A DNA stretch of 64,000 bases, from the NCBI GenBank assembly GCA_030374765.1, contig JARGXX010000043.1:56829-120828 (forward strand). The letters run 5' to 3'. Shown piece by piece: positions 1,979 through 64,000 of this stretch. The position numbers and the translations under genes were made by a program. Position 1 is the stretch's first letter. Each line of letters opens with the position of its first letter. The DNA comes from Agarophyton chilense. Lineage: Eukaryota; Rhodophyta; Florideophyceae; Gracilariales; Gracilariaceae. The notes under the pieces were generated by a model. The model worked only from the letters and a program-made list of their open reading frames with translations. It did no database searches and was not told where the DNA came from.

Positions 1979-2757
1979 CTACTTTGTGTTGCATTCTCTC
2001 GCTGTGATCAGGTAGACGTCTCTCTGAGCCTCAGTCTGCAAAACGGCGCTCTTCTTATCGATTCTTGCTGGTGTCCAATTGAAGATCACTGCAGGGAAAA
2101 GCAACATTCGAATTCCAACCGGGGCGCATTTGGCAGAGTCCGTATTAAGCATTTCTCTGTCTCTGTCTTTGCTCTCATGCGAGGCCATGCGGGCTTTCAG
2201 TGTAAAACGATCATCCTCATACCTTTTCACCTTGTAGATTACATGACGAGACACATTGTTTACATTCGAAGGAACGTTTGAGACAGGGATATCTTTGACA
2301 ATCCTCTATAACGACTTATCTTCTTTGGCGGACGCATTTTCGGTTGCGTGAGAAGGGGGTCCCTGAGTCTGGTGAATCATGAACTACGTTGCCCTGAAAG
2401 CCTCGTAGTAATTACGAGTGACTTCCTTCAGTACTGCGAAGTTCCTGTTCCGGGAAAAGTTGCACTTCTGCTCCGTTTAGTACCTCCTTCTGCGTTAAAT
2501 ATCCCTGTAATACTGCTTTTGATCTCACCAATGCACCCTAATCTCGTCTCCAACACTTGAAAATTGCTGTCCGATGGAGCAATTTTTTCTTCTGGAAACT
2601 GATGTACTGAAGTGTGGGTATGTACGGTTTCAGTGTCAAAGTATTCGTCTAGATTGTGCTCCGTCTCCATAATTTTATATACACGGGTTCTGCCCATGCC
2701 GTAGATGGTATCCTGCACAGCGGAAGCTATGTTGCTGACGGGGATTAAGACCCGCAC
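1979..2757 (-). pseudogene. CopA0 copia pol remnant: Tudor-like relic and RT N-part
   Basis: Upstream half (in minus orientation) of the decayed copia. Frame 1979-2254 matches the start of the CopA RT: SRHVIYKVK, KARMASHE and DSAKCAPVGIRMLL correspond to the HVIYKIK, KTRIAPHG and DSATCSPAGIRILL motifs of CopA4. Frame 2428-2757 begins with a segment alignable to the Tudor-like domain of CopA4 (residues RVYKIMETEHNLDEYFDTETVH against VTVNYDDGETETLDLEQETW), now much altered. Interrupted and non-functional. The domain order Tudor-like then RT is the same as in the other copies. Confidence 0.65.
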
Positions 2758-13094: not shown

Positions 13095-13926
13095 CTACCA
13101 TTTATCATTGGCATTTGCAAGCCCGTATGCAGCTGTCAACAACAACCATAGATTAGTAGATTTCATTCGGCTTTCTTTGGGAGGGCGCACATAGACATTT
13201 CTCTGCGCCTCACCGGTCTGCAAAAATGCAGAGTTTACATCAGCCCTGCAAATGTTCCATCGGAATAAAGATGCTATGGACTCGAGAATCCAAAGACCTG
13301 TAGGTGGACACGTTATACAGTCTTTGCTTAGGACGATCCTTAAGTCATCTTCGCTACCATGAGGTGCTATTCGTGCTTTTAGCTTCAAAGAGCCATCGTC
13401 ATTACTCTTCATTTTGTAAAGTGTGTGACTATTGATTATATTTGAGTTCGGAAGAACTTCGTCGTGTGTGACAGGGCGCACAGTCTTGATGAAGGTTTCC
13501 TCTTCTAACTTGTATGCATTGAATAGAGGGTATTGGTGGAACCCTTGTGCGTGGTGCTTGAGGAATGGCTTATTCCCAAAATGCTTTACCATTGACGACT
13601 GAACAGCTTTCTCAGTGCTAGTGACTTGTAAATCAGGCAGTGTTGGACTAGAGCTAGAGCTAGCTGTAAGTGCATTGTTGTAGTTCCAAACTTCCTTTAT
13701 CATATCTAGGAGTTCTTTGTCGCCGTCCTCATAATAGGTGTTTAGACGACCATCTTCGTCTGCTGAATGCACAGTTCCTGGATAAAAATGCGCAGCCATG
13801 GGCCAGAGCACTGAAAAAATGTGTCCAACTGACGGTTTATCATACGGAGAGTCCGTCGATAGTACATCATCAGCAGCTGCATTCTCATGATACGATGTAG
13901 CCTGGGAGTCAAAACATCTACTTGGT
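13095..13926 (-). pseudogene. CopA1 Tudor-like domain and RT N-part
   Basis: The frame opens upstream of 13811 and ends at the TAG near 13095. Its first domain (13674-13811) reads VLWPMAAHFYPGTVHSADED then YYEDGDKELLDMIKEVW, the pattern of Tudor domains of the PDS5/Agenet type (WP-D-FY-GTV-SYD-YEDGD-E-L). A Ser-rich linker follows, then the RT start: LYKMKSNDDGSLKLKARIAP, RWNICRADVNSAFLQTG and WLLLTAAYGLANAN. It joins the integrase frame by a one-base shift near 13920 that is shared with CopA2. This placement of a chromatin-reader-like domain within a copia pol is unusual. Confidence 0.75.
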
Positions 13927-14880: not shown

Positions 14881-14887
14881 CCGTGAG

Positions 14888-26685: not shown

Positions 26686-26689
26686 GTCC

Positions 26690-27657: not shown

Positions 27658-27675
27658 ATCCGGCACGTTATCCTC

Positions 27676-27695: not shown

Positions 27696-27755
27696 AGGCA
27701 GACCCTTTGTGCCGACTATTTCTTGTGTTGAGATCGCTCCCCACACTGCACACGT

Positions 27756-37880: not shown

Positions 37881-37891
37881 TTCACCATCAT

Positions 37892-38229
37892 GCCAACGTG
37901 GAATGATGAGATGGATTGGTCTTTTTCTTTAGAACATGAACGACTTCGTTCTTGAAACGAGAGCAGCGTTTACAGACCCACTGGTTAGACAGACCAAACG
38001 CTGCAAACCAGTTTATCAGAAACTTTTGCTGCTACTTCAGCTGTGATCTCGGTCGTGGTTGTGAGCCAAAACTAACCGCTGTGATCATCTTTGACTACCA
38101 GAACATACAAAAAGCCATCCCCGCCACGTGACATGTAGCAAAAGTCGAAGTGAAACAATTCATTAGGTTGTAGACATGCAGTTTGTTAGATTAAAGCTAC
38201 AAAATAAAAAAATTGAGTGATGCGAATCC
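37892..38229 (-). pseudogene. GypB0' integrase piece (duplicate of 4453-4790)
   Basis: Partner of the right part of GypB0, with about 5 percent differences. It starts abruptly at GCCAACGTGGAATGATGAG, which marks the left end of the segmental duplication against unrelated CopC sequence. Confidence 0.65.
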
Positions 38230-39524: not shown

Positions 39525-39740
39525 TTAATGAAAATCCGTAGGAAATGTAATATTAAACTTCCCAAACGGAGCTGAAAGAACCCCTTGATACAAAATAGTT
39601 GCTGCTACGCCCACACTTTGTACTAATCGTCGGTTAAACCTCAGACTTGCGCCTGCAAAACTGTCAACATCTGCCCGAGTTAAGTGGGCTTTGGGAATTG
39701 ATGACAACAGGGCTCTAAAAATCACATTATCAGAACTCAA
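39525..39740 (-). pseudogene. Unrecognised coding fragment
   Basis: 71-residue minus-strand frame (KAHLTRADVDSFAGASLRFN and GVLSAPFGKFNITFPTDFH). The copy-1 equivalent near 6090-6330 keeps the second half of the frame but has stops in the first half. Family unknown, probably a transposon piece. Confidence 0.3.
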
Positions 39741-39797
39741 ATGCTAGGGCTTCTCCTTCCGTACAGAAGTTCAAACTTTCCTTCAACCAAAGTTTTC

Positions 39798-40025
39798 CTA
39801 CTTTGAGTTGGGGCGCTTTCGAGCACTTCCTATGCGTCTATCAGGCACTAGATTCCGTCTTCCGCCCACTCGGTTCAATGTAGGAAGCGCAATTCCATTT
39901 TGGACATTTACTACTTCAGCATGTTCAAGAATTTCTCTCTCGTGTATATGATCGTCAGGAAAGTGATCAATAACTTCGTTGGCAATTAAATGGCTATAAA
40001 ATTGCGTATTAGATCTTGAGGCACG
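39798..40025 (-). pseudogene. Unrecognised coding fragment, copy 2
   Basis: Open for 75 codons to the TAG at 39798-39800 with FYSHLIANEVIDHFPDDHIH, VQNGIALPTLNRVGGRRNLV and a RKRPNSK end. Better preserved than its partner at 6359-6589. No family recognised. Confidence 0.35.
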
Positions 40026-40440
40026 CTATGAAGAACTTTGGTGTTGTTGACGTGTCGCGATTTGCGCTCATCGCACGTGACGCAAAAGGTTGGGCACCAA
40101 GAGGAGTTCCGCGCTGTGTCGGATGCCCCCAGACTCTTTGACGAAGTCTGGTATTCTTTACTATATAGTAGTCTCTGGTGCTCCAAGAACAGCTCGTGGG
40201 TTGCGCTTCTAGATTTTCTATGATGCGTGCGCTGCGTAGATGTCGCTGTCATCCAGCAGCTGTCTACTTCGAGGTCCTACGCAGTCCAAGCGCCTGCATC
40301 TCAATCCCGACTGCAGTCCACTCTGGGCTGCAGTTGCGCTATTTCATCCCAGTTTCGCAGCACTCCGATTTGTGGTGCACCTACGCATCCCAGATGTGCT
40401 CGTGGGTGGTCAACAGTCCCCTTATGACCAAAATTTCGAA
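40026..40440. other. 3' flank of GypB2
   Basis: No gene recognised; partner of 6590-7019. Confidence 0.3.
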
Positions 40441-43047: not shown

Positions 43048-43476
43048 GTGGGTCAGCGTACGGGTCTCGACCGGTGGTAGCGTGGTAGAGCGAATCCTAA
43101 GGTCCGAATTCTTAACGGCGGCACTCCCAGAGCACTCGGTGCAATTTCTGGCGTTTACAGCGTAGTCCTACAGGTCGGTGCTACAGAAACCATGGCTTGA
43201 AGACCAAAGGGTGGAACTAATATAGCAAAGGGGGTTCTTTAGTATCCTAACTGTGCCTACCTTACTCTAAGGGAGAAGCATCGCTCGAGCCAAGAAGATA
43301 GTACTGGCGAGGGGCTGAGATCTCCCTGGCTCTGTAATGCTAATCTATGAAACAAATTAAAATAAACAAATAATCTGCCTGAGTCCAGATGATATCGGCC
43401 AGTCCACGTGGCGTCTGTAAGATCCCTCAGGGCCCGGCGGCTTACAAGGCTCAAACGTTATCGTCGCTTCTTCACA
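43032..43476 (-). repeat. GypB LTR, copy 3 (5' LTR of GypB2)
   Basis: 445 bp, TGTGAAGAAG...GCGTTACA on the minus strand. Aligns end to end with 2827-3274 and 9590-10035. Confidence 0.75.
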
Positions 43477-44530
43477 TATCTCCCTCCTTAGGATTCGGCC
43501 GTTACGGAGAAATCAAGATGGACTCATGAATGACTCAGTGGACGCGAGCACTTCGTTGCTCCCGGTACCATTGGGTGTGACGGGACGTCGCGTGGTCATC
43601 GCCTACGGGGAGGCGTGGAATGGTGAGCTGACCATTGGTGCCGAAGGAAAATTAATTTGCCTAAGGACTGAAACTCCCGCGCGCCGTAGACATTGGCCAT
43701 AGATAGAACGCCGGCGTATTCCTCGTGGCGCGGTATCGCGGTGATCCCTTGGCTTATTCTCCCCTGAAGGTCATTGGAGCCGTCCTTAGTCTCCGCTCTT
43801 ACTTTGGCGACCATCCGGGCTTCATCCATCGTGGTTTACGCCTGTCAGTACGCTCAGGTCAATTCCATTCTTCTTCTCATAGTAGTAATTTTTCATTGGT
43901 CGCGCGCGATGCCGAACTCGCCTTTTAAGCCCGTTGGATACACCATTCTCCCTCCAGACTATGTCGCTTCCGTCGGCTCTCCTATCTATTTCCTGGCTGA
44001 GCAGCCTGTGGACAGCGGCACCATGGCTTCGAAAAACCAAACGGAGAGCTCCTCAAAATACCAAGTGGCTTACGAACGTCCCAGGGACCGCTGTGACCAT
44101 ACAATGGGACGGAATCAGCGGGTAGTGCATCATGCCATTCTTTCGTACTCTGTGAAAGAATACCAAAGGTTCTTTCATATGTATCTGGATGCCCGAAGGT
44201 TTGCCAAGATACCCGATTTCCGGAAGGGTTGCAAGAACGCGCCCAGCGTCTCGTTGTATAATAGATGGCTGTATTTTCCTGTGGATCCGCGTTCGCCGAC
44301 GCGATGTCGAACTCTAATTCAAGCCGACATGCCGTAAGTTCGCAGCGGGAAAGAAGCCGAATACCAGTTCAAGGTGAACAAACTTCTTTTGGACCTATAA
44401 ACGGAGTTCATATTGATTTATATGCGATTTTCTCCAGGGGGTCACGATCTTTTTGCGATTATATGCTTCCGGCAGCCGTATGACCGCCTGTTTTTGGGTT
44501 TCCAATATGGTGTATCGGAACGACATACAC
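43477..44530 (+). pseudogene. Unrecognised decayed plus-strand coding region, copy 2
   Basis: Partner of 10036-11060. The best-preserved part is 43774-44337: MPNSPFKPVGYTILPPDYVA, KYQVAYERPRDRCDHTMGRN, HHAILSYSVKEYQRFFHMYL and NAPSVSLYNRWLYFPVDPRS. After TAA at about 44335 the frame goes on with EAEYQFKVNKLLLDL. Comparison of the two copies gives a protein of more than 300 residues with no recognised homologue. It could be a capsid-like or host gene. Confidence 0.45.
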
Positions 44531-44539
44531 GAGTTCGAT

Positions 44540-44770: not shown

Positions 44771-45571
44771 CAACCAAAGTTTTGCTCGGATCTTTTTGTT
44801 TCCGAAATATCCTGAGAGTTGAAGATGAGTTTGTCAGTAAATAGCGTAAGCTGGAGAGCATCTGTCTTCTTGGTGAGTAGATCTGCAAGGTTGGAGTTGC
44901 CAGGAACCCAAGATATTTTGTCCACTGCACCAGTCTGAAATTCATATTGGACGCAGCTAACGTCTCCGCGAATAGACTTGTCAATAGAGTTTTTCTGCAT
45001 CAAGAGTGGTGTGAATAAATCCTTTGATTCAACTGCAATTCTCAGTTTAACATCCAAATCTGACAGCTCCGGGTATGCCTTCTTTGCTTAAGACGGTTCT
45101 TAAGTCATCTTCGCTACCATGAGGTGCTATTCGTTCTTTTAGCTTCAAAGAGCCATGGTCATTAGTCTTGATTTTGTAAAGTGTGTGACTATTGATTATA
45201 TTTGAGTTCGGAGGAACTTCGTCGTGTGTGACAGGGCGCACAGTCTTGATGAAGGTTTCCTCTTCTAACTTGTATGCATTGACTAGAGGGTATTGGTGGA
45301 ACCCTTGTGCGTGGTGCTTGAGGAATGGCTTATTCCCGAAATGCTTTACCATTGACGACTGAACAGCTTTCTCAGTGCTAGTGACTTGTAAATCAGGCAG
45401 TGTTGAACTAGAGCTAGAGCTAGCTGTAAGTGCATTGTTGTAGTTCCAAACTTCCTTTATCATATCTAGGAGTTCTTTGTCGCCGTCCTCATAATAGTTG
45501 TTTAGACGACCATCTTCGTCTGCTGAATGCACAGTTCCTGGATAAAAATGCGCAGCCATGGGCCAGAGCAC
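44770..45571 (-). pseudogene. CopA2 Tudor-like domain, RT N-part and RNase H end joined by deletion
   Basis: The Tudor-like domain is 45434-45571 (VLWPMAAHFYPGTVHSADED, NYYEDGDKELLDMIKEVW). RT N-part follows (LYKIKTNDHGSLKLKERIAP) until a junction at 45080/45081 where about 1.01 kb present in CopA1 (12311-13321) is missing, removing the RT active site and most of RNase H. The RNase H end (KISWVPGNSNLADLLTKKTD) is read in another frame at 44770-45057. Confidence 0.8.
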
Positions 45572-45677
45572 TGAAACAATGTGTCCAACTGACGGTTTAT
45601 CATACGGAGAGTCCGTCGATAGTACATCATCAGCAGCTGCATTCTCATGATACGATGTAGCCTGGGAGTCAAAACAT

Positions 45678-46637
45678 CTACTTGGTACTATATTCCGGAC
45701 TTGCTTCGGCAGTCGTTACAGGCAACGTGCCTGCAGAACTACGCTGTTCAATAGAGAGTTCATCTACCGAGCCCATTCCTTCCTGTACTAGTTGGGCGAA
45801 GCTCTCTTTAGAAAGTGCTGGCCAGGTATCTTCAAAGGCGGCAATAATTTCCCGACCCTTGCGTCCTGGAACGGTCACTGAGCGAGCAGCTCTGTTGACT
45901 AAGAGGATCGGTTTGGGATCCGTCCACTTTCCTCTCTTTTCATAGTCTTTCTTTTGGTTGACTTCAACAAAGTCACCAACTGCGATTGGTGGTTCAGTCA
46001 CAGAATTTGAGCGAAGAATTAGCGCTAGTTTGCGGCGTTCTTGTAGCTGGTCACGAGCAATGCGAACATCGTCAGGTATAGCAGTTTTGTTAGGCTCGGC
46101 GGCAATAGGATTTGAGAAGCCTTTCGCTAGTTCAAATGCAGACAAGGTGTTGTTACCGTAAAGATCGTTAGAAATACACAGAGGCTTGTATGCAGCTACT
46201 TTGGGGTCAAACTCGGAACCAGCATCCTCTTTTAGGTTAATAAAGATGCTGCGAAAGATGTTATGCTTAGACACTATCGCATTTTTCGAGTGCCTGCCAG
46301 GAGGCACTCGATGAATCGGTATTCCAAGCTTCTTGGCGTAGCGCTTGAACGATCCGACTTGGAAGGCTTTGTCTGCACGAATAGAGTCAGGGTACCAGAA
46401 CTGGGATAACCAGGAGGCTTCAAAGGCAAAAATAGCCTCTGTAAGACTTGTTGAAGTTACTACAAGAGCACTTGAATATCTTGTAATTAGATCCATCAAG
46501 TGCATTTGCAGCATCTCATCAAAAAAAAGATCGACACATAAAACCTCGTTGTAGTTCTTAGAAAGGGAACTAATGGAGACCTTGAGACTGGGCTGCGGCA
46601 CCGCTGCGGAGCGACAAGCAGTGCAGCGATTGATCAT
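45678..46637 (-). pseudogene. CopA2 integrase
   Basis: 319-residue frame, longer than in CopA1 because the poly-A run is one or two bases shorter. CTAC half of the zinc site, first Asp in EVLCVDLFF, second Asp in SIRADKAF, Glu replaced by Val (AIVSKH). C-terminal domain RGKWTDPKPILLVNRAARSV. Almost identical with CopA1. Confidence 0.82.
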
Positions 46638-46646
46638 TTCCGTGAG

Positions 46647-46868
46647 CTACGACTTTACGGTCTCAATCCAGATTCCATTCCTCTCTAGCAAGAGCTTGTA
46701 GTCACTATAGCTTGCATGGCCACATACGTGTTTGTAGGCCTTGTCTATAATCTTCTTTACATCACACCATGGTGTGGTGTCAAGAGTTACTGCAGAGGCT
46801 CGAAAGAGTAGAGCCGTCATTGCAGTGAGATGTAAAGATTCCCAATGCCGAGTAGCTAAGGAAGCCAT
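46647..46868 (-). pseudogene. CopA2 integrase zinc-binding segment
   Basis: As in CopA1 (KHVCGHASYSDYKLLLERNG) and ended by the same TAG. Confidence 0.7.
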
Positions 46869-46947
46869 TATTGATTATGGAAAGGTGGTCTCGGTGTCCG
46901 TGAGAGACGAACATAAGTGCATTTCTGCCTATGTGCTCGGTATTAGC

Positions 46948-48247
46948 TTATCGAGTCACGTTTCTTCCAATGACCCACTGGGGTGATCCGTCTAGAACAA
47001 GGTGCTTGATCCGAACTGAATTACCGTGGTCAGATGTCGCAGTGAGGGCAATTGATCCTAGTATGTGACGTGCTGAACTGGTGTGCCGGCCAGTTCCGTA
47101 CTGCCAGTGCGTGTGTCCGTTGAGTGCCAGGGGTATGGCATCTAGCTTCGGGTTAGCTGGCAATCCGATGTGATCGGCTAGTAAGTTCAGTTCTATTTAT
47201 CCAGTTGCGGAGAACGATGCTTCGTCGTCAAGCAGTGGTCCGAGTTCGACCAGAGATGTATCGGTACTGGCGGATGAGCTAGTCAGAGTTGCCATATTAA
47301 ATGAGACAGTCTTCCTCTTAGACTTGTCTCTGCTGTGCTGATCATGGTAAGGTGTGTTTCCAGTGCAATTAGAGTGACGACCGTTTTCTTTGGACCCAGA
47401 TGGGCCATGAAATGACTTCATATGCGATGGGAATGAGCTGTCGGGATAGTGGTTGCGCCTCCAGTGTCCATATTTTCTGCATTCATCACAGGGATACTTT
47501 AAAATGGAAGATTGTCCCTTGTAACGGCTTCTGTGACTGCGAAGATGTTCTCGAGTATGGCTTGTTCTAGCAGAGCTGGCAACAAGCGATCCAATTTCGC
47601 TGTTTGGGGAGGTCTTATCGCAGTGCTTAATGACCGAGGCTACTGATTGATCCGTTATAGAGTTGATAAACTCTTCATTCGACGACTGCAAAATGAGGTT
47701 CTCATCAGATGATTCGCCTGCTGCCATAACGGAAACCCGTTTGGAGTCATCAATGGCGGAATTAGATAGTAGCATTAAAGCAGTAATGCACTCGGGTAGC
47801 CTGATAGTAGAAGATATGGAGTTGAACTTTGGAACTTGTGTCGAGAATCGAGACTCGAAGTTCTTCATGGTCTCGGTGCTGCAACGGCGAGTATTCCATA
47901 GCATATTGAGCGCGGGAAGCTTCACTTACTATAGAGAGGGCATCCTTCTGATATATATTGCCCACGAAGAAGTCTACTTCCCAATCTTCAATCAGCTCAG
48001 TCTGTGACATTCCAGTGCGAAGATCTTTTGCACGGCCATAAAATTGAGATTTGATACAAACAGCCTGCATTGCTGTCGGCATCTTGCTGCTATTAGAGTC
48101 TGGGAGAGTTTTGTGAAACGTCTGCCAGAGCTTGACTGCATCTTGATATTCTTCCTGGTCACCCCTCCCATCAGTCCATGGAGGGGATCTCACATCCCAG
48201 GAGAACTTGGTCCTAGACGAAAAGTTGGCTTAGAATGCTGGGCCCAT
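46948..48247 (-). pseudogene. CopA2 gag and protease
   Basis: Gag ATG at 48245-48247 in the primer site, TAA at codon 6. Frames 47762-48193 and 47197-47925 carry gag with the CDECRKYGHWRRNH knuckle. The protease site is LLDDEASFS, then TAA at about 47197 and the remaining frame 46948-47163 to QWVIGRNVTR. A few single-base differences from CopA1. Confidence 0.8.
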
Positions 48248-48250
48248 CAC
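48236..48250 (-). promoter_or_regulatory. CopA2 primer-binding site overlapping gag ATG
   Basis: Identical to the CopA1 site at 16477-16491. Confidence 0.7.
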
Positions 48251-48570
48251 TAAAAAAAATTAGACTGCGCCTTCGTGCTTGGTCGAGCTAGTCGACTGAG
48301 AACGACAAATTCAAGTGCTTTCTGTCAGTGTAAAACAAATTCCACATTGAGAGAGAGGTCTCTACCTCTTCCCGCTGGTTTACCAACTACAAACATGGTG
48401 ATTTGTAAGGACACACAATTACAACATATAAGCGTGCGCAATACATTACAAAAACTGTTGCCACGAAATAATATCAACGAGTCACGGTACAGCCATTAAG
48501 AATACAAATACGAAAAGATGGGGCGGTTGCATCAAGAGAAGGTCAGTTTCATCAACCTACCATTCTAATA
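48251..48570 (-). repeat. CopA2 5' LTR (presumed)
   Basis: Practically identical with 16492-16811. Confidence 0.5.
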
Positions 48571-49945
48571 GAAGCATTCACGTTAGTCGGTTATCACAGT
48601 TTTTATGAATATAATCCGTTCATTGTAACAATTCCTATCATTGTCGATGACAGTACACATTCATCTTTAGTGCTCAGTCTGCTTTTTCCCTTAATAAGAT
48701 TTCTACACCAATCGTGCATTTGACTAACTTTACTTCTTCAATCAACACTTTTCTTTGAAAAACAAAGTATTGAGAGTGCTACCAAATAAAAGAAGAAGCT
48801 TATTTATCTTCGTAATCATCTTCGAGAACTCATACAAGTGCGTACGTTAAGTTTTTTTCAAACTCTTTGTAAGATTTTAAGTTGTGGTCGAGATCTGTTT
48901 GGCTACGTTTCCCCTTTCCAAAACAGTTTTAACACTACAGTCAAAGAACGTGGTATTTCTTTGTCATCGCAGATATTTCGAAATATTTACAGTGCTTCCT
49001 TCCAGTTATCAGTAGTTGTTTCGTTATGAATATTTAAAGGAGCCTGCCAATTTGGGCAAACTGTATATCAGATGAGACGTTCAGTCTAACCAGAGCTAGG
49101 GCTGCCCGCACATGGGAAGAGAGGCGGCCTGAGCCGGAAGCAGCCACTAGTATTGCGTGCTTTTTCTCAGCCGTTCCACTGGCTTTGGCTCAGCCGTGCC
49201 ATCGTCTCATAACTCGCTTCGGCACGAGAACTCTCAGTAAAAATAATAGAGAAAGCTGGCCGCTGCTTCCAACTGCGAACAGATCCAGCACTGTTTGTGC
49301 AGCCAATGAGAAAGGAGCCACTGACGTCTTTTCATTGGCTGCCCGCCGTAGTAGGAACGGTCAGGTGGTCGCCGGCGCCTCCACTTAATGAGCCCGAGAA
49401 TCGCGACGCTCCCGTACTTAATCCCGGACTCTGTTCACATCCTCGTATGGTGCGACTCACACATCTTCAGTCGTAGCTTCAGTCTCAGCTTCACTCACAG
49501 CTTCAGCCGCAGCTTCAACAGCACCTCGAGCAAATAGCTTCAGCGGGTTTTTGCAGTGTTCCCAAGCGCGACTCAAACAACTATCTCAGTCGCAGCTTTA
49601 ACAGCAGCTTCAGCTCCAGTGTCAGATTCTTCAGCCAAGGAAATGTTTGAGCTTTTGCCTTCGTATCGTCTTTCGGACGAAATACCCATGAAAGCACCCA
49701 GAGACCAATAGCCCATTTTACAAGCCGAGGGGATGCTTCGGCTATGAGATGCTCGCTTGAGCTTTACCATCTTGTGAATCTCAGAACTGCCCTCGGTTGT
49801 AATCGGATATGTACATTTCTACGGAGCGCTACAACTATCTACTGCACCAAACTCACCTTCAGACCTCCATGTCGTCCCCATCGGCACCTTGCGACACATT
49901 ACCATCTTCCGCATCTCCTGAATCGGTCTCTGTACTGCTCACAAC
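48571..49945. other. Spacer between CopA2 and RB pseudogene
   Basis: Partner of 16812-18186, including the CTTCAG-rich tract near 49460-49640. No gene recognised. Confidence 0.35.
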
Positions 49946-51208
49946 TCAACTTGATCTTCCGATGACTTCTTGCACCTCCCGCCGCACTGCGGTACATCTT
50001 GCGTCGGCAACCGGCCCATCGAAACTCAGTGGTCGATACCGTCTTCTCTCCCAGCTTCTGTGACTCACTGCAACATTTCCGATAGGACTTTCCCCAAAGG
50101 CGAATGGTGACCGAGTACCCGGTGTCATTGAACCCAGATCGTTGCCTTGACTTCTCCGCACGCTGTGCTGTCAACTCAGAGCCATATTCCTCGTTGACGG
50201 TGACATGAGAGAAACAAAAATCGATCCGATTTGTTTTGGGGATCTTTGTGTCTTCATGATGCGCATAGCACTCTGCAATAATTTACGATCAATATCCCCA
50301 AACATTTTCTTTTGTTCCCTTCCCTGACGGCGGCTTGCCCGTCTGGAAAGGTCATTCAAACCTTCTGAAGCTTGGTCGTCTGCCTTACTCGCTCGCAATG
50401 CTTCCGCTAATCTCTTTGCATCTCGGCCTTCAATATCTTCGCCCGTCAGTACGATGAAGTTGCTCATGTAAGGCACAAACACTTCGTTATAGAAGCGAAT
50501 GATATCGCCTGTCTCTTCAGCCGTCGATTCCGGTCGTGGCCCACTATCATCGGCAGCATCTTCCGCCAACAAATGCCCGAAATCTCCGAGAAAAATGTTA
50601 CGGGACACTGGTGGAGAATTGCTCAGAAATGTGGAATCACTTGTGTGCTCCAATTGATTGTAGTGCCACACGATATGGCGGAACTGCAGTTGGATATGTT
50701 GGATCTTGGCCACGCCATCTATCACAAACAGGATGATCAAGTCAATATGTCTGTTGACTGTCAAATTCCATCTGCACCACAGAGCATACTGCACGCTTTT
50801 CCACACTGCCGAACGAAGGTTGGTGGGGCCAAGTCTTCCTAACAAATCCCCTATTCTAGTGCTTGCCAGGGCAAACAATTTTTCAAAAAAGAAGTCTAGA
50901 ACTCTTGCTCTGGCTTCAACATCTCCGTACAGTCGTTCCGGACGCCCCATTTCTTTCAACCTTAGTGTGATCATCGCCTTTGTTTCTATACGTTGTCCTT
51001 CTTCGATCTTCTGCTTTTGCGGCGTAATCGGGGATTGTTCTACACTTTCTGGCTGTTCATTATGTTCTGGTGACTGATCGGACATCTGTGTGTTCACCAA
51101 CACTCGCTCCGACAAATTTCTCTTTTGGTTAGAACGGTTTCTGCTCATCTTGCGTACAAAGGAAATCTCGACTACATGCTTGAAGAACTCGTACCAGAGG
51201 CGAGTCAT
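49946..51208 (-). pseudogene. Retinoblastoma-related pocket protein copy 2: B box and C-terminus
   Basis: A 345-residue open frame (50171-51208) holds the linker and the full pocket B box: VLDFFFEKLFALASTRIGDL (residues 103-122), NRHIDLIILFVIDGVAKI (152-169) and DIIRFYNEVFVPY (235-247). A TGA (50171-50173) interrupts it. The same frame continues with RSPFAFGESPIGN to 49946. RB pocket proteins bind E2F/DP and LxCxE partners in the nucleus. Upstream the A box and N-terminus are present but broken (51209-53227). Part up to 50824 is the partner of copy 1. Confidence 0.75.
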
Positions 51209-54763: not shown

Positions 54764-54931
54764 AAATTCCCTTCCGCGTTCAGTAAACGCTCCCAATTCT
54801 GTAAACTGCATCCACAACGCCACAAAAAAAATTCTATGTCTTTTTCGTATCTCGGATCAGATCTGATCACTCGTATGGTCACAGCTGCTCAAGATACTTT
54901 CCGAGCGACATCATAGTAGTATCTACCGTTT

Positions 54932-55426
54932 TTGAATATCAATGATACAAGTGAGGGCTGTCCAACATGTACCTCTATTCCACTACAGGAGACAAGCCAG
55001 CGACCACCGCACTCACTTATGTCCAACTGTGTTGATATCTCGAATCACTTTGTTTCCTTCGACGACACCAACTGCGGCAACTGCACCCAGAGCAACGCCG
55101 AGCGCATTTCGTTCTGCTTGTTCGTGCCATCTGCACCAGCTTCTGATTTGCATACGCATGTGCGTCTCTTGGAACCCAACGAATGCTGTCGTATGACAGA
55201 CACCGGCGCCTTGCCATGCGGTCGACATCCATGCTGCCATGCGCTTCCCTCTGTTTTGCAACGAGAATCAAATGCTGTTCAGTCCGTGATTTTGTTGGAG
55301 AGCACAGCTCCTGAATTCTTTCTGTTCTGGTTTATTGCGACAAAACTGGTCCAAGATGATTCACACCGCGTTCAAATTTTGGTTTTCACAGAGAATGGAA
55401 ACCAGTGTGCTTTTCGGCTGCGATGA
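54932..55426 (+). CDS. Zinc-finger gene copy C, N-terminal ORF
   Basis: 164-residue frame, in the same register as the zinc-finger frame starting at 55703. It contains NCVDISNHFVSFDDTNCGNC, HVRLLEPNECCRMTDTGALP, ESTAPEFFLFWFIATKLVQD and VQILVFTENGNQCAFRLR, a pattern suggesting a beta-sandwich domain, but no family is recognised. Between 55427 and 55702 the same frame continues with TGA, TGA and TAA interruptions (segments LRDEKLRVLSDTRSN and LVEKYRPLCVEAFPSPFV look coding). So the two ORFs were probably once one protein, now split by nonsense changes. Copies A and B have an additional stop at GRHPC. Confidence 0.45.
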   Translation: MNINDTSEGCPTCTSIPLQETSQRPPHSLMSNCVDISNHFVSFDDTNCGNCTQSNAERISFCLFVPSAPASDLHTHVRLLEPNECCRMTDTGALPCGRHPCCHALPSVLQRESNAVQSVILLESTAPEFFLFWFIATKLVQDDSHRVQILVFTENGNQCAFRLR

Positions 55427-55702
55427 GAGATGATGCTCCGTGACGAAAAACTTCGAGTACTTTCGGACACTAGATCGAATTGAAACAGATCACACTTTTC
55501 AGTACTTGGACGCTGGTGTCGCCGGCGAACACCGAGCTACCTTGCGTCTTTGCCATCAAAGTTGGTCGAGAAATATCGCCCTCTGTGTGTTGAAGCGTTT
55601 CCCTCACCGTTTGTTCTGTGTACTTTACACGCGTTTCAATCCTTGCGTCCTCCCTCGAAATAAGCAAGGCATCTCACACAACAAACAACCCAATCGTTTA
55701 AG

Positions 55703-56992
55703 ATGGACAATGAACTTGTTGCACACCAGTTTTCGGGGTTTCTCAAGAGAAGGGGATTGAACTACACAAATCGCAGCAACCAAAACAGAAGAAGCTTAGA
55801 TGAGTTCCCCCGCGCTCTCCGACTACCGCCGCTTGGAAACCCTCAAGCAGGGAGTCTTCCAAGCTTCCAATCTCTATTCGGCCGCTCGGAAGATTCAAGA
55901 CTTCCATCCGGCCATCGATTTATTTCTCAACGACTACCGCCGCTTGGAATATCTCAACCGGGAAGTCTTCCGGGTTTCGAATCTTCATTTGGCCGCCCAG
56001 GCGATTCCAGACTTCCATCTGGCCATCAATTTAGATCTCTTCGACTACCGCCGCTTGGAAACCCGCAACCACAAAGTCTTTCGAGTTTCCAATCTCTATT
56101 CGGCCGCCCATTCGGCCGCCCGGAAGATTCAAGACTTGGATTCGGTCATCAACCCACTTCTTGCGATGTCCGTCGGAGTGGAAGTGGAACCGCTCGTCCC
56201 GTGTCTCTCGAACGGTTTCAGGAAGCAAGGGGCACTCACCCCATTCCTGCACTCCAGTCCCACGGAAATGAACACTACACGGAAATCCCACACCAACACC
56301 GCCATGGGGAAACAGCGTGGCGAAGAAAAAGTGTTCTGAAACTACCTCAGGAGCGCAAGAGTCGGGATGAAGGCGCCCCAGAGATTGCACAGAGATTTTG
56401 TTCAGATAGCATTCGCCAATCTCCAGTTCATGTGCCTTATCCTGCCCCGGAAGCGTCGTGTCTCGTTCAAGAAGTTTCCCACCGGTCTCCTGAGCACAAC
56501 CTCCGTGACGATTCGTTGTTGCCGATACGTACAGCTCCTGCTGGTTGCTCATCATTTCCAACCCATCAACCAGGACTCGAAAAACTTGGCATCACAGGCT
56601 CCCGTACCAAACGTCCCCAGATTTTCCAGTGTGAGTGGTGTACGAAGTCGTTTGGTCGCAAGCATCATAAGGTGCGACACATCCAAGCCATTCATCGAAA
56701 AGTGAGTTACTTCAGCTTTCACTGCGGATCTCAATCACGTCGGTCTTTTCTAACATTTCTCTTTGCAATTGCTTTTGAAACCATCTTCTTTGACATATCC
56801 ATATTGGATGGGGTAACTCAGGTGCGCCCCTTTGTCTGCCCCGTATGCTCGCATCGGTTTGACCAGAAACAGAACCTAGAAAGGCATTTGAGTACTGTTC
56901 ACTGCGTTGAGGCGGGGTTCAAGTGCCAGATTTGCGGCATCCTGTTTTCGCAAAGAGCGATGGCCGAATCCCACATGAAAACTGCTCATTAA
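55703..56992 (+). CDS. C2H2 zinc-finger protein, copy C
   Basis: 429-codon frame nearly identical to copy A (21916-23205): the same repeat region, intron (56702-56821) and three C2H2 fingers. Upstream and downstream flanks instead match copy B, so the gene is a mosaic. The predicted spliced product is about 389 residues. A TAA after finger 3 and a degenerate fourth finger follow as in A. Probable nuclear DNA-binding factor if expressed. Confidence 0.6.
   Translation: MDNELVAHQFSGFLKRRGLNYTNRSNQNRRSLDEFPRALRLPPLGNPQAGSLPSFQSLFGRSEDSRLPSGHRFISQRLPPLGISQPGSLPGFESSFGRPGDSRLPSGHQFRSLRLPPLGNPQPQSLSSFQSLFGRPFGRPEDSRLGFGHQPTSCDVRRSGSGTARPVSLERFQEARGTHPIPALQSHGNEHYTEIPHQHRHGETAWRRKSVLKLPQERKSRDEGAPEIAQRFCSDSIRQSPVHVPYPAPEASCLVQEVSHRSPEHNLRDDSLLPIRTAPAGCSSFPTHQPGLEKLGITGSRTKRPQIFQCEWCTKSFGRKHHKVRHIQAIHRKVSYFSFHCGSQSRRSFLTFLFAIAFETIFFDISILDGVTQVRPFVCPVCSHRFDQKQNLERHLSTVHCVEAGFKCQICGILFSQRAMAESHMKTAH
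56702..56821 (+). other. Spliceosomal intron in zinc-finger gene C (120 nt)
   Basis: Identical in signals and length to introns of copies A and B. Confidence 0.8.
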
Positions 56993-57163
56993 GCTTTCGA
57001 GCATTTGCAATTTAGGCTGTACAAGATCTACTTTACGGAGATGGAGGATAATTTGAGCCATGTATGCGCAGAGCACCCCAATCGTCACAGTTTACCAACG
57101 GGTGTGAGGAAAGTATAGCTTGCGACTCTAGCCGTAATGGAGTAAGTTATCTACAAGCTTCTA

Positions 57164-57967
57164 TCAGTGTTCTATCGCCTGAAGGTTATGCTCAGGAGAA
57201 CTGCTTGGAAACTTCTTGCGTGGAATACAACGCTTGCGGGGCAGAACAAGGCACGGGAACTGCATATTGGTGAATGTTTTCTGAAGAAAACCCCTGTGAA
57301 ATCTCTGGCGCTCCTTCTTCCAGACTATTATGTTCCTGAAGTACTTCCAGAACGTTGCCTCTTCGCCACACTTTTTCCTCATGGTGGCTGTTGTGTGGCA
57401 TTTCCGTGGGACTGGAATGCAGTCTTGGTTGGGGTAAGCGCAACTTGCTTCCTGAGACAAATTGAGAGACACCGGACGAAAGGTCCCACTTCTACTCCGT
57501 TGGACATCACAAGAAATGGATTTATGGCCAAATCCAAGTCTTGAATCTTCCGGGCGGCCAAATGAAGATTCCAAACTTGGGAGAGTTCTCGGTTGAGATG
57601 TTCTAAGCGGGTGTTCTCGGAGAGAGCTGGTTTGATACACGGATGGAAGTCTTGAATCTTCCGGGCGGCCGGAGATGGATTCTAAGCGTGGAAGACTGCC
57701 CGTCTGAGGGTTTCCAAGCGGCGGTAGTTTAGTTGGAGAGCGGGGGGGAAACCCATCTGGGAGTCTTCTGTTTTCGTTGCTGCGATTTGGGTCGTGCAGC
57801 CCACATGCCGAAAGGCCTTGTGAGTAATTAGTATACCTATCTTGATACCGCTGGCAATCGTAAACTGAGAGAAATTCTCTAGTACGCGAAATAACAAGAC
57901 ACGCATTATAAGCTGTCTTCTTTTCCACACTTTTCTCGCGTTCTATCAGGAAGCAAGACCGGATCAT
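57164..57967 (-). pseudogene. Inverted paralogue of zinc-finger gene N-terminal half (C')
   Basis: Partner of 25882-26685 with very few differences (for example GEKATFW against GEEATFW). Tail to tail with copy C. Confidence 0.5.
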
Positions 57968-57971
57968 GTCC

Positions 57972-58597
57972 TCAAAAGACGGAGAAAGAAACCTCGGTCA
58001 CGAAATCACAGGAAAGGGTGATGTAGTCCACACCACACGATAACAAAGAAGAAGCGAGCTGTCCTAAACATAGTAGCGTTGCTATATTTTTGTTACGTTG
58101 TGAATGGCAATTATTTCTTGGAAAGATTTTGCTCCGAGTGGCGGACGCATGTTGAGTGGTTCGAAACTCTGTCAGAATGGCGGGAGTCCAGGCCGGCAAC
58201 AGAATTGTTCACCTTACCCACCCCACTTGAATGTGAACAATTGAAGCGGCAACCCCTGCATCTGCAGGCCGTTGTTGTTCGAATATTTTTTCTCTCAGGA
58301 CACGGAATGACGCGCCCAGAGGGCACCAGAAATCCTTCAAATAAAAGGCCCATGTACCTCGCGCCCAGCTTGCAGTGGCATCATCTTCATCTAGCACGTG
58401 AATACCCCGGCCGAGCTTTGATGGTAACGGTCTCAAGAGCGACAAAAAAGCAATAGCTGTGGTCCAAATTCGTTTCGGAGCCGACATTCACATTCGACTT
58501 GACAAATCCTGTGCTCATGCCCAACGCTGTCTTCCTGTTGGAGCAGCCGCCGCATTCCTGTGCAAGCGCTCACGATGCAAGATAGTAGCCTAGCATC
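57972..58597. repeat. Repeat module M, direct copy 2
   Basis: Partner of 26690-27315 (offset 31282). Confidence 0.65.
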
Positions 58598-58868
58598 GCA
58601 TTATCTGCCAACCACTACAATGTATTAGCATTTCATCCAACCGTTTAGAACCAGCACCCAGCCCACTGGTGCTCACCCCGACGCAGTAACGCTACTGAAG
58701 CTATTCTCTTCTCTCCACTGCACTACAGAGTGCCCCGATCTGGTACGTTTTGAAGAATTGAGTTGAGTACCTGTACAATTTTAAACAATATCGCAATGCC
58801 CATGTCTATCTATGCCACAGGCACCAGCGATACGCTGTACCGCTGTGAAACACGTACAACATCCATCA

Positions 58869-58940
58869 GTGACGTACAGATTGACATAACCAGTACGTCA
58901 CCTTAAGTGTCCGGAAGGTCGCATAGTATCCCTATATAAA
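58869..58940 (+). promoter_or_regulatory. Promoter-like module, copy 2
   Basis: GTGACGTAC at 58869-58877, GTACGTCAC at 58893-58901, TATATAAA at 58933-58940; the same spacing as 27587-27658. Confidence 0.55.
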
Positions 58941-58957
58941 TCCGGCACGTTATCCTC

Positions 58958-58977
58958 GGAGCTCTTCCGAGAGCTCC
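58958..58977 (+). promoter_or_regulatory. Perfect 8-bp hairpin, copy 2
   Basis: Same sequence and position relative to the TATA box as 27676-27695. Confidence 0.5.
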
Positions 58978-59037
58978 AGGCAGACCCTTTGTGCCGACTA
59001 TTTCTTGTGTTGAGATCGCTCCCCACACTGCACACGT

Positions 59038-59255
59038 ATGAACTTCAACAACATGTCCGAAGCTCAACTTACAACCGCATCCTTGCACAAAGGCCTTGTA
59101 TCATTGTGTGATGCATGAAGACCAAGCCAAGTTCTATCAGAGTGCAGTGAAAGAAACAGAAGACTTTTGAATACACCATGTCAATGATGATCGCGCACTG
59201 AAGCGCATTGCTGATTCTTGGCATGAGCCTCAGCGTAAGGGCACAGCATAAAAGT
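59038..59255 (+). pseudogene. Small broken coding region after promoter, copy 2
   Basis: As at 27756-27930, but with the additional roughly 60 bases that extend the second frame to ALKRIADSWHEPQRKGTA and a TAA. The extra bases appear ancestral because they prolong an open frame, so copy 1 probably lost them. Confidence 0.35.
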
Positions 59256-59656: not shown

Positions 59657-59914
59657 TGTGTGAATGTTGAGTTACAGAGACTCACTTTCAATGGACGTGA
59701 AGTACTGGTCAAGTAACCGGCTGTGAGAAACTGTCCATGCAACAATGAATCTGTGTGAGTACTGACATGCAATAGACCATCTGATATATAAGACAGAACA
59801 CTGCACTTGTTCTTGACAAGTGGACCGTCACAGAGGTTCTCCCCATTTTTGATAAACTACCTCTGATCGTTATCTGATACCGCTACCACTGTCAACCGTA
59901 TTCTCAATTATTCA
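59657..59914 (+). repeat. CopA4 5' LTR
   Basis: 258 bp, TGTGTGAATG...CAATTATTCA (TG...CA). It begins exactly where homology with the other copy of the block stops (CAATC at 59652-59656 and 28311-28315). A TATATAAG box at about 59785 is the likely promoter. The 3' LTR lies outside the window. Confidence 0.75.
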
Positions 59915-59929
59915 TTGTTATGGGCCCAG
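59915..59929 (+). promoter_or_regulatory. CopA4 primer-binding site overlapping gag ATG
   Basis: TTGTTATGGGCCCAG directly after the LTR. GTTATGGGCCCAG is complementary to 13 bases of the initiator tRNA-Met anticodon arm. The gag ATG (59920-59922) lies inside. Confidence 0.8.
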
Positions 59930-61482
59930 ACCCAGATTCTACGTTACCGAAGGGGCTACCAACGCGGCCAAGATTTTCTTGGAACCTCAAAAGTGTCCCT
60001 TGGACTGATGGTCTTGGAAACCAGGAAGAATATGCCTCTTCCGTTGATTTATGGAATTCGTTCCATGATATGCTACCAGATTCAAATTCTAATAAGATTC
60101 CAAGTGCGCTAAGGGGAATTATGCTACAGTCACAGCTCTACGGTAGAGCCAAGGATCTTTGCAAAGCAATATCCGCTGAAGATATTCGAGCCGTTGATGG
60201 ACATAAGGTTATCGTGAATGCAATTTACAAACGTGATTCTCTCTCTGTGGTTAGTGAGGTTTATCAAGCGTTCATGACAATGCTAAACACTCGTCGCCGC
60301 GGTAATGAGAGCTATCTAAACTTCGAGGCACGCTTTGCAGCTCAAGTATCCAAACTGACTGCTACATCTGGTAGTTGCAAATTGCCGGAGGCAATGAATG
60401 CATTCATGTTACTTGCAAACTCTGGTGTTGAAAATGGGCAACGAGTATCGGTGCTTGCTGCTGTTGCTACCAATGATTCGATTGCTACTAATGCTGACAC
60501 GGAAGCATTTCTACAAGCCGTATCCTACGAAAAAGTTGCATCTGTGCTTCGTCAGTGTGATCACACAACTACAGAGCCGATGGAAACCTTATCAACCAAT
60601 TCAATCAATGGATTCAATAGGCATCCACGCCGAAAACTGTCCCCTGATGCGCTTCTGGATCTGAAGAGCAAAAGTAAGTGTCGGAAATGTCACAAGTACG
60701 GACATTGGGCTGTTGATCACAATGCCGATGGGTCCTTGAAACCTGGGACCATGTCTAGTGAGACGCAAGAGAAGCAGTCAACTCCGTCTGAAAACCAAAA
60801 GAAAACGATAACGTTCAACATGGCAAACCTGCATTATCTCGCTCCAGCCTATGAAGCTCCAGAACCTATTATTGGCCCGTTGTTAGATGATGGTGCACCG
60901 TATAGCGGAATTGGTATCACTGAATTCAAAATGCTACAGCCTACCGTTTTGCCTGGGTGGAACGGGACATTCGAACCACTACCCGAGGGCATACAACAAG
61001 GAAGCGTGTGGCAGTATGGCTCCGGCCAGCATGCCAGTGAACAGCGACGCATACTTGGATCTGTCAAATTTAATGTAAGGACGGATATGGGAAACACTGC
61101 ATCTGTTACGCACCTTGTGATTCAGGGATCCTCGCAGTGGGTCATAGGAAGAAATGTTACCCGGAAATGTAACATCTTACACGTTGATGCAAACAGGTTA
61201 GTTCTTCCTGGTTTGCAAGATTCGATTGCTCTTGAGGATAGCTCGTACCACAGCTACATACCGTTCAATGTATTTGTACCAAAATTTTATACTCCGAAAC
61301 AAAATAATTCAACAGAGCTATTCTGTGCGGCTGCTCAGTTTGATGGAGAGAACTCCAGCAGGCCTTGGAAAGAGCTCAAGAAATTGGTTGACAAAGTGCA
61401 TCAGCATGTTTGTGGTCATTCTTCTTTTTCGGATATCAAGATATTATTGGAAAGAAACAAACTATGGAGCCCCGATGTGTAG
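59920..61482 (+). CDS. CopA4 Gag-protease and integrase zinc-site start
   Basis: 520-residue intact frame. Gag starts MGPDPDSTLPKGLPTRPRFS and shares WTDGLGNQEEY and LQSQLYGRAKDLCKAIS with the other CopA copies. The zinc knuckle is CRKCHKYGHWAVDH (60679-60720; C-X2-C-X4-H-X4-H, His in place of the last Cys). Protease site LLDDGAPYSG (DDG at 60886-60894) and closing motif SSQWVIGRNVTR. The end holds the HH half of the integrase zinc site (HQHVCGHSSFSDIKILLERN). TAG at 61480-61482 stops it. Gag forms the particle, and the protease should cut the polyprotein. Best-preserved copy. Confidence 0.88.
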   Translation: MGPDPDSTLPKGLPTRPRFSWNLKSVPWTDGLGNQEEYASSVDLWNSFHDMLPDSNSNKIPSALRGIMLQSQLYGRAKDLCKAISAEDIRAVDGHKVIVNAIYKRDSLSVVSEVYQAFMTMLNTRRRGNESYLNFEARFAAQVSKLTATSGSCKLPEAMNAFMLLANSGVENGQRVSVLAAVATNDSIATNADTEAFLQAVSYEKVASVLRQCDHTTTEPMETLSTNSINGFNRHPRRKLSPDALLDLKSKSKCRKCHKYGHWAVDHNADGSLKPGTMSSETQEKQSTPSENQKKTITFNMANLHYLAPAYEAPEPIIGPLLDDGAPYSGIGITEFKMLQPTVLPGWNGTFEPLPEGIQQGSVWQYGSGQHASEQRRILGSVKFNVRTDMGNTASVTHLVIQGSSQWVIGRNVTRKCNILHVDANRLVLPGLQDSIALEDSSYHSYIPFNVFVPKFYTPKQNNSTELFCAAAQFDGENSSRPWKELKKLVDKVHQHVCGHSSFSDIKILLERNKLWSPDV

Positions 61483-61956
61483 AAGTATTTGTCACTGATA
61501 CTGGAAAAATGCGAGCACTGTTTATGTACCTCTGAGCCAAGAGCCACACGTAAGGTGTCCTTGAGCACCGTGAACAGAGAGTTCAATGACGTTGTGTGTA
61601 TTGATCACTTCTTTTTGGAAGCGAACTGCGTCTTTCATATCATGGACTCCAAATCTAGATACTCCACTGGTGACGTAGTTCCTAACACGTCTATGGCTGA
61701 GGCCATTCGTATTTTTGAGCTACTATGGGTAACACCGTTTTGGGTCCCTCAAAGTGTTTTCTTTGACCCGGCTTTCAAAGCGACAGAATTTACCTCTTAC
61801 CTACACAACTACGGTATTGAAGCGAGACCAATTCCTCCGAGACGGCACAACAAGAATGTAATCGAATCAAAGCATACAGTAATACGAGATATATTAAGCA
61901 CTCAGCTACTGATTGTTCGTCAGACACAGAAAAACAAATTGTTCAACAAGCTCTAA
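61483..61956 (+). pseudogene. CopA4 integrase core
   Basis: In frame after the TAG. CEHC completes the zinc site. First Asp in VVCIDHFFLE, second Asp in VFFDPAFKATEF (61765-61767), Glu in NVIESKH (61864-61866), with 32 residues between the last two instead of the usual 35. All three catalytic residues are present. Near 61888 a one-base loss shifts the frame; this frame then ends at TAA 61954-61956 while the real one continues (ISNDLYGNDICSAQEMAKGY). Confidence 0.82.
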
Positions 61957-64000
61957 GGATTTCCAATGATTTATACGGGAATGATATATGCTCTGCACAA
62001 GAGATGGCAAAAGGATACACAAGACCAGTCCTGAATGGGGCATTCCCTCTTCCCATCCCGGACGAGATACTAGAAGCTCATGAAGATCTCATTGCAAAAA
62101 GGAAGCTTACATTGATTTTAAGGTCCAAAACAATCACTGACATTCCCTTGGCAGTTGGTGATCAGGTGCAGATATTTATCAAAGAGCAAAATGCCAAACG
62201 AGGTAAATGGTCTGCTCCGAAAGTGATTCTTTCGTTTGACAAAGCTACCGGAATAATATCAGTACCCGGGAAGCGCGGAAAAAATTTAACAGCTGCTATC
62301 GAAGATGTTCGCCCTGCCCTCAAAGAAGACAGCATTGCATCAATGATACAAGAAGCAATTGACATATTGGAATGGAACGTTGATGAGTGTATTGAAACGG
62401 TTTTATCCACCCCCCCTACAGTTACTTCTCCAAAATATGGTCACTCCAAGGCATGCAAAGAAGAAAATATTGAACCCTATGTTGATCAAACGTTTCAGAA
62501 TGGAACAGGTGATAGTTATAATGCCCTTCCCTCGAGTGGGGACAACATCGAGGTATTTTGGCCTCTAGACAATGTGTATTACCCTGGAACAATTGGAGCT
62601 GCAGATGATAACAAGGTCACTGTTAATTATGATGACGGTGAGACTGAGACACTAGATCTTGAACAAGAGACCTGGAGATACAATAACACCGACATCCTAG
62701 AAGCAAACTCTGTGATTCCACTGAAGATTACAAGCTCTGAGCAAGAAGTTCTCCAACACTACAAGAATCATTTCGGATTGAAAGATTTTCAATTTTTTCA
62801 AGCTCAAGGTTTCACGTCATTCCCACTGATTAATGCTTATGAGAAAGAAGAGAAGAAGTTCAAAGAGACAGTTAACGTGGTACACAAATCAGATATCCCA
62901 CGGAATGCCAACATAATCTCTAGCCATGTCATATACAAGATTAAGAATAATGATGACAACACCCTTCAGATGAAAACACGCATAGCCCCACACGGAAACA
63001 TGGATCGCGAGAAAAATGACCTGAAAACAGATTCAGCGACGTGTTCACCTGCTGGGATACGAATACTTTTGTCACTGGCAACTATCTTCAAGTGGTGTAT
63101 AGCTAAAATCGATTTTAAGAGCGCGTTTCTCCAGACTGGAAAAGCTGAAAGAGATGTTTATGTTATTCCTCCCAGAGAAAGTTTGGACAAGAATCACCTA
63201 TGGCTATTGCTAACTGCGGCCTATGGCTTGGTAAATGCCAACGCCAAGTGGCAAGAGCTCAGTGACAATCTTTTGAAGTCTTTCGGATTCGTTCAAATAC
63301 TTTTTATCCCGCAAATGTTCCTTAAGACTGATATGACTGGAAAACTAATTTTAGTCTCTGTCAAAATCGTTGACGATGTCCTTCTTGGAGGTCCGAGGGA
63401 TTTAGTTGGGGAAACAATCCAGAAAATTCAAGCCTCGTATGAACTCGGTACGATATGTTATGGTCCTGGCACATTTCTGTTTTATGGACTACAAATTTCT
63501 CAGGAAGATGATTTCACTATTCATGTCAATGCAGATGCTAAACTGCAGTTGTTGGAGTCATTCCCTATAAGCAGACAGAGACGAAGAGAAATCAATGAGA
63601 AAATGACTGCGATTGAAGAAAAAAGCTTCCGATCTGTCAGCAGTTCACTTGGATGGCTTGGTATAGCAGCTTCGCCGCTGTGTGCCTTTTATGCGAGCTA
63701 TTTACAGCAAAAGATACCGCAAGGAACAGTCCATACGCTAATCTCACAGATTAACATTTTACGACTACTGAAAAAACTGGGGACAACTATACAATACACA
63801 AGACCCCGAGACAAGAGCTCATACCAAATGTCAGTCCTCGCGTTTTCTGATGCTAGTCGACTGGTTGATCATGGCCAGCTTGGTTTTTGTATTGGCCTGC
63901 TATTTGGGCAATGTCAAGAAGGGGCTATTTTTCACACCATCTCTTGGTGTAGTCACAAATCTAAGCGACCAGTGAAATCAATCGGCGCTGCAGAAATAAT
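61890..64000 (+). CDS. CopA4 integrase C-domain, Tudor-like domain, RT and RNase H (runs off window)
   Basis: Open without any stop from about 61890 to the window end (over 680 codons). Order: end of integrase core, C-terminal domain (RGKWSAPKVILSFDKATGII), linker, Tudor-like domain at 62550-62687 (EVFWPLDNVYYPGTIGAADD then VNYDDGETETLDLEQETW), RT (SSHVIYKIKNNDDNTLQMKT, KIDFKSAFLQTGKAERDVYV, WLLLTAAYGLVNA, active site KIVDDVLLGG with IVDD at 63366-63377), and RNase H (LAFSDASRLVDHGQLGF, HTISWCSHKSKRPVKSIGAA). No own start codon is expected because it belongs to the polyprotein. It is separated from the preceding part by the frameshift near 61888. Confidence 0.9.
62550..62687 (+). other. Tudor-like domain coding segment in CopA4 pol
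   Basis: About 46 codons reading V-FWPLD-YYPGTI, then VTVNYDDG, E-LDL and ETWRY. Aromatic and acidic positions correspond to the PDS5/Agenet class of Tudor domains, which bind methylated Lys or Arg. Also present in CopA1 (13674-13811) and CopA2 (45434-45571), and decayed in CopA0. Confidence 0.7.

Follow-up and report, generated by a model that had tools for sequence, protein, structure and literature searches.

Layout of the CopA4 element

The window analysed here comprises the terminal 64 kb of contig C43 of Agarophyton chilense; searches covered the genome to which it belongs (80 Mb, 135 contigs). The window ends in CopA4, a Ty1/Copia retrotransposon on the plus strand that spans ~59.7 kb to the window end and carries a Tudor domain. 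Its parts follow the Copia order: gag/protease frame, integrase remnant, integrase C-terminal domain (IN-CTD), variable linker, Tudor segment, second linker and RVT_2 reverse transcriptase (RT). The gag and protease part (59878..61482) is a 534-codon frame closed by a stop, with a weak zinc-knuckle match (PF00098, 12.8 bits, below the cut-off of 20.8) and a protease assigned by eye. It is followed by a remnant of the integrase core (61483..61956; PF00665, 16.3 bits, below the cut-off of 32.6), after which the reading passes into a different frame. The alignment placed the IN-CTD at 61944..62370 (bounds approximate) and the variable linker upstream of the Tudor at 62371..62525. The Tudor domain itself lies at 62526..62684, corresponding to model residues 15–67 of a 92-residue segment (62484–62759) that reads in frame as ...GDNIEVFWPLDNVYYPGTIGAADDNKVTVNYDDGETETLDLEQETWRY..., and is placed between the IN-CTD, defined by alignment, and the RT, defined by PF07727 (62889..63509; 74.6 bits against a cut-off of 31.6). 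The reading of CopA4 is interrupted by one stop and one frame change. As the window end is also the contig end, to which the element continues, CopA4 is truncated within the RT/RNase H part.

The RVT_2 RT, with an integrase C-domain upstream of it in the aligned rows, assigns the element to Ty1/Copia (Pseudoviridae). It is not a chromovirus, which combines a Gypsy RT with a chromodomain: the RT is of the Copia type, and PF00385 was absent from the 16 families that 14 members matched. CopA4-type copies also occurred as pairs with an exact spacing of 4,727 bp on two other contigs (C122, 68241/72968; C44, 6241/10968), which suggests tandem elements with a common long terminal repeat (LTR).

Identity of the Tudor segment

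The first-pass annotation had described the segment as a Tudor-like domain of the PDS5/Agenet type. A single CopA4 copy matched the Tudor domain of Arabidopsis RDM15 (PDB 7DE9) at E 5.1e-7, with 39% identity over 54 residues, and the Tudor profile matched the same entry at E 4.9e-16. When the Tudor of these transposable elements (TEs) was compared with RDM15 by hhalign, a probability of 98.5 was obtained over 49 columns. The fold predicted for the segment was a five-stranded Tudor barrel, the fold of RDM15, with the SMN and TDRD3 Tudors among its neighbours. Pfam Tudor_3 (PF18115) matched the CopA4 copy at E 3.8e-5 and 23.9 bits, below its gathering score of 25.8; in the same genome it exceeded the cut-off at 27 places, all of which overlap rows matching the CopA4 segment. 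Profile, predicted fold and cage residues agree, and support the identification of the segment as a Tudor domain nearest to that of RDM15. We take RDM15 to be a plant PDS5-like protein. The Agenet label had to be dropped, as PF05641 scored 16.5 bits on the segment against a cut-off of 27 and matched just one of 14 members, at E up to 0.1.

Conservation of the methyl-lysine pocket

In the part of its published description that deals with ligand binding, the RDM15 Tudor is a reader of monomethylated lysine 4 of histone H3 (H3K4me1): the methyl group is held by W616, Y623 and Y641, the amine protons by D643 and D645, and H3R2 is contacted by E647 and Q654. The corresponding CopA4 codons start at 62559 (W616), 62580 (Y623), 62628 (Y641), 62634 (D643), 62640 (D645, E here), 62646 (E647) and 62667 (Q654, E here), in RDM15 numbering. 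CopA4 therefore has all three cage aromatics, the acidic partners and the H3R2-contact glutamate, and CopA1, another copy in the window, likewise retains W, Y, Y, D, E/D and E at the contact positions. Unlike in RDM15, position 654 is mostly E in the elements.

Pocket residues were counted in 145 TE Tudor rows, drawn from own loci and from homologues after removal of those with ≥12 gaps, and in 65 representatives of groups <80% identical, 17 from this genome and 48 from elsewhere. The three cage aromatics were kept in 63/65 representatives (17/17 own, 46/48 others). Aromatics together with acidic residues at 643 and 645 were found in 48/65 (12/17 own), a count that stayed at 48 when an acidic 647 was added; for all 145 rows the three counts were 139, 112 and 112. 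The R2-contact position 647 was E in 62 of the 65. Mean entropy was 0.60 bits for the seven contact columns vs 2.03 bits for the other 45 (p 0.0002). Aromatic neighbours outside the cage vary (615 at 1.65 bits, 622 at 1.88 bits), and the columns invariant where filled were G609, W616, Y641 and W655.

Constraint on the Tudor domain

Three more copies of the segment lie in the window, all on the minus strand. As the first-pass annotation had stated, CopA1 (13668..13832) and CopA2 (45428..45592) bear the Tudor at the same place as CopA4, and a heavily eroded stretch from Tudor to RT at ~2333..2560, with stops and mere scraps of the pattern, was taken as its decayed copy CopA0. CopA1 and CopA2 fall within the two halves of a 5.7-kb duplication (13321-19065 / 45081-50824, 99.3% identical) that also contains a retinoblastoma B-domain gene fragment (PF01857); they are one insertion, copied along with its surroundings. 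Their likeness, which had been offered as a sign of selection, is consequently not independent evidence of conservation. Nor were the segment matches in frames of identical 222 or 286 codons, which recur on many contigs, counted as such. Direct repeats of 90 nt, 89% identical and 3,813 nt apart, flank CopA2; none were found around CopA1 within 11700-17000.

Conservation beyond the flanking linkers was nevertheless seen between families. Mean identity, taken over the 105 pairs formed by those 15 of the 17 own representatives in which all parts are present, was 0.44 for the Tudor, 0.23 and 0.20 for the linkers, 0.51 for the IN-CTD and 0.55 for the RT. The ratio of nonsynonymous to synonymous substitution rates (dN/dS), a check that the first-pass annotation had proposed, was taken from 78 loci with all parts (68 distinct), of which 7/2,278 pairs had a dS of 0.15-1.2. 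Pooled over three pairs, it was 0.08 for the Tudor, 0.20 for the IN-CTD, 0.18 for the RT, and 0.40 and 0.31 for the linkers; with rounded counts, Tudor and first linker differed at p 0.0005. Between families, these sequence comparisons show the Tudor to be more constrained than the linkers.

Distribution in the genome and among public proteins

The genome was searched with the CopA4 segment, and the best 150 of 309 candidates were scored. All 150 matched, some in part, and a single broken copy accounts for two of them. Near-identical or broken copies are numerous, and 26/150 rows each lie within one uninterrupted frame of 1,490-1,561 codons. The rows cluster by contig: 20/150 lie on C100 (1.84 Mb), 7/150 on C28 (1.08 Mb) and 7/150 on C11 (0.23 Mb), with 3/150 on C68 (5.03 Mb) and 1/150 on C95 (3.00 Mb). 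Such clustering could also be produced by post-insertion selection or by duplication. A further search was made with the RT, in which the best 150 of 1,145 candidates were scored. From the larger set of RT loci without a Tudor row, 20 were hand-chosen, mostly for long frames, and fetched; all 20 still bear a diverged Tudor between IN-CTD and RT.

In a first profile search of public proteins, 42 of the best 120 of 251 matches spanned IN-CTD and RT, and 35 of these had the Tudor. To offset the bias of this search, a second was begun from Tudor-less relatives; it scored just the 7,995 candidates with most words in common and gave the best 120 of 125 matches. The combined pool, among the matches listed, comprised 179 proteins, of which 67 span IN-CTD and RT, 54 with the Tudor and 13 without. 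The Tudor is thus present in most members of the family that were compared, and the first-pass annotation, which would have abandoned its proposal had the segment been absent from most members or had no Tudor barrel been predicted, held on both counts. The relatives include proteins of the red algae Gracilariopsis chorda (P0010) and Agarophyton chilense (P0036), each paired with one genome family (94.5/97 and 100/100, respectively). Two Tudor-bearing relatives, P0044 and P0050, as well as P0103, whose sequence stops within the domain, carry source names of transcript assemblies (TRINITY, which we take to denote transcripts), and so appear to be transcribed. With the single CopA4 Tudor as query against 5.8 billion proteins, none of 2,984 candidates reached E ≤0.001; longer profiles did find relatives. 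Among viral contigs there were 30 pattern matches, with no relative among them.

Origin of the Tudor domain

An element tree of 83 rows and 256 columns was built from the 67 spanning proteins (minus P0107 and P0150), 14 own loci, and four distant proteins taken by RT alone (P0168, P0174-P0176). One branch separates six distant Tudor-less proteins from the other 77 rows. Among these 77, one nested group consists of nine Tudor-less rows (82.7/95; 97.5/100 for eight of them). In several Tudor-less members a linker with a THxMxxRS-like motif takes the place of the Tudor. By parsimony two changes are needed, consistent with one gain and one loss; a Tudor already there at the root and lost twice is equally costly. 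The pattern of presence and absence suggests a single gain.

Possible donors exist, since the genome has non-TE frames with a Tudor of the same type: five loci (L097, L098, L099, L100 and L105) carry an RDM15-like Tudor without integrase or RT matches, and in L097 it is combined with SET, PWWP and AWS domains. A Tudor tree combined 65 TE Tudors with seven of host type, RDM15 and six from the genome, on 51 columns, which are few for that number of rows. The TE/host label needs four changes on it, and the starred branches force at least three. None (0%) of 200 bootstrap trees placed the TE Tudors on one side, and an approximately unbiased test does not reject such a placement (p 0.397). The plus-strand host frame of L098 grouped with six TE Tudor rows (97/91); it is possibly a domesticated or a donor copy. 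Beside a single gain, the domain may thus have been captured several times, or a TE Tudor may have been taken up by the host.

Relation to known systems

A comparable arrangement is that of the Ty3/Gypsy chromoviruses, in which a histone-reader fold is likewise fused downstream of the integrase C-domain. According to the passages concerned with it, the chromovirus chromodomain is located at the integrase C-terminus (PMC2774666) and is assumed to confer targeting preferences (PMC6317226). The Tudor described here occupies the corresponding place after the Copia IN-CTD; the two differ in that chromoviruses are Gypsy elements with a chromodomain. The same plant survey, where it deals with chromodomains, records them in chromoviruses and in no other group (PMC6317226). 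In the diatom CoDi-A elements, a Copia integrase has a C-terminal chromatin-reader-like module, a putative chromodomain presented in the relevant passage as the sole Copia case at that time (PMC2774666). A retrotransposon with a Tudor has also been published: Gypsy-10_Ec32 of the brown alga Ectocarpus, whose authors, in the section devoted to it, state that they know of no earlier report of a Tudor in a TE (PMC12477816). It differs from the present elements in being a Gypsy element, in bearing the domain C-terminally, and in having its homologue in a yellow-green alga. The first-pass annotation knew of no description of such a reader in Copia. This holds for a Tudor in Copia, for which no description was found in the open-licence PMC literature, among the matches listed; it does not extend to related fusions, as CoDi-A and Gypsy-10_Ec32 show. 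The elements are another case of reader capture by retroelements, and the nested Tudor-less clade provides a natural control.

Proposed function and alternative explanations

We propose that a Ty1/Copia clade acquired a Tudor of the RDM15/PDS5 type directly downstream of the IN-CTD and has retained both the domain and an intact methyl-lysine pocket. Within the integrase, if it stays attached to the mature protein, or within an integrase-RT intermediate, the Tudor would most likely bind a methylated histone lysine. It would then tether the pre-integration complex to marked nucleosomes and bias insertion. H3K4me1 is the first candidate ligand, being the mark read by the closest relative of known structure, whose contact residues the elements largely retain; the host has two H3 genes with an intact ARTKQTARKS tail. 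The position of the Tudor beside the integrase suggests elements that choose insertion sites by reading chromatin, and by analogy with chromoviruses such targeting is plausible. A Copia element, ATCOPIA93, is described in the pertinent part of PMC6668482 as having strong chromatin preferences dependent on H2A.Z. RDM15 itself is a host factor of RNA-directed DNA methylation, not a mobile element. For this reading as a whole, that is, a Copia Tudor acquired, retained, reading histone methyl-lysine and steering insertion, we estimate a probability of about 0.62. The link from reader to insertion site is directly testable, since the ligand and structure of the nearest solved relative are known.

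Several observations weigh against this proposal. The full acidic set is missing in 17/65 representatives; position 645 is looser (D/E in 55/65), as is 654 (E in 54/65, Q in 2/65), and two own groups, L088 and L089, have N at 643. H3K4me1 specificity may for this reason not be common to the families, and ligand preference may differ between them. On fold alone RDM15 does not stand out, because VIA rows within 1 Z unit were tied. The dN/dS values rest on three non-overlapping usable pairs, two from one family, and the contrast of Tudor with IN+RT gave p 0.06 (rounded counts). Near-identical copies showed no extra constraint on the Tudor (N/S of 3.55, against 2.38 for the IN-CTD and 2.89 for the RT; p 0.48 vs IN+RT and 0.83 vs linkers), a result that may reflect drift following insertion, with selection acting on replicating lineages. 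Finally, the Tudor is dispensable in one clade, as the Tudor-less clade has spread.

Of the other explanations, the one that deserves most attention, though we consider it unlikely, is that the ligand of the Tudor is a methylated non-histone or host protein, for instance one that acts in silencing or nuclear import, and that the domain helps the element to stay in the nucleus or to escape silencing instead of choosing sites. Tudor domains also bind methylated non-histone proteins, and the fold neighbours include SMN and TDRD3, the SMN entry with dimethylated arginine; yet the closest match, by structure as by sequence, reads the histone mark H3K4me1, and its contact residues are largely kept here, down to the glutamate at the R2-contact position. 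Somewhat less probable still is a purely structural barrel that spaces integrase from RT or assists folding, its pocket conserved just for stability. SH3-like barrels are common spacers, and some of the four invariant columns could be structural. Against such a role, conservation is higher at the contact residues than elsewhere in the domain, neighbouring aromatics outside the cage being free to drift, and the Tudor-less clade copes with a linker of different make-up.

Two further possibilities we regard as very improbable. Both the Tudor and the IN-CTD start with a VGDxVEVF-like stretch, as they would if the segment were a duplicate of the SH3-like integrase C-domain and not a captured Tudor. 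Profile comparison led us to reject this origin: Tudor and IN-CTD aligned over 11 columns (probability 28), against the 49 columns shared with RDM15, and the IN-CTD matched RDM15 with a probability of 1.3. Equally remote is a decayed relic retained by chance in young copies, to which the many near-identical or broken copies, and the nonsynonymous variation that is not lowered within near-identical sets, might point. Such a relic would hardly be expected in 17 own and 48 other groups at <80% identity, in the long open frames of 26/150 own rows, or in relatives named after transcript assemblies (P0044, P0050).

A more specific form of the proposed chromatin targeting is tentative and, on the present data, doubtful: the Copia clade may have captured an RDM15-type H3K4me1/R2 reader that has long aimed integration at gene-associated chromatin, with the pocket retuned in places (N at 643) and one lineage discarding the domain. 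If true, the targeting strategy would be opposite in mark to that of the H3K9-reading chromodomain of chromoviruses.

Other features of the window

Two more segmental duplications were observed in the window, 4447-11092 / 37886-44533 (89.0% identical) and 23495-27913 / 54764-59195 (98.7% identical). A chromodomain (PF00385, 29.7 bits against a cut-off of 25.1) ends another frame at 7023-7592 on the minus strand, which, judged by eye, resembles the integrase end of an LTR element. Together with the Tudor elements, it brings two kinds of chromatin-reader domain into one window. Three similar frames of 391-442 codons lie on the plus strand (21877-23205, 24535-25710 and 55664-56992), and a C2H2 zinc finger (PF00096, 45.3 bits) was recognised in the first of them to be scanned.
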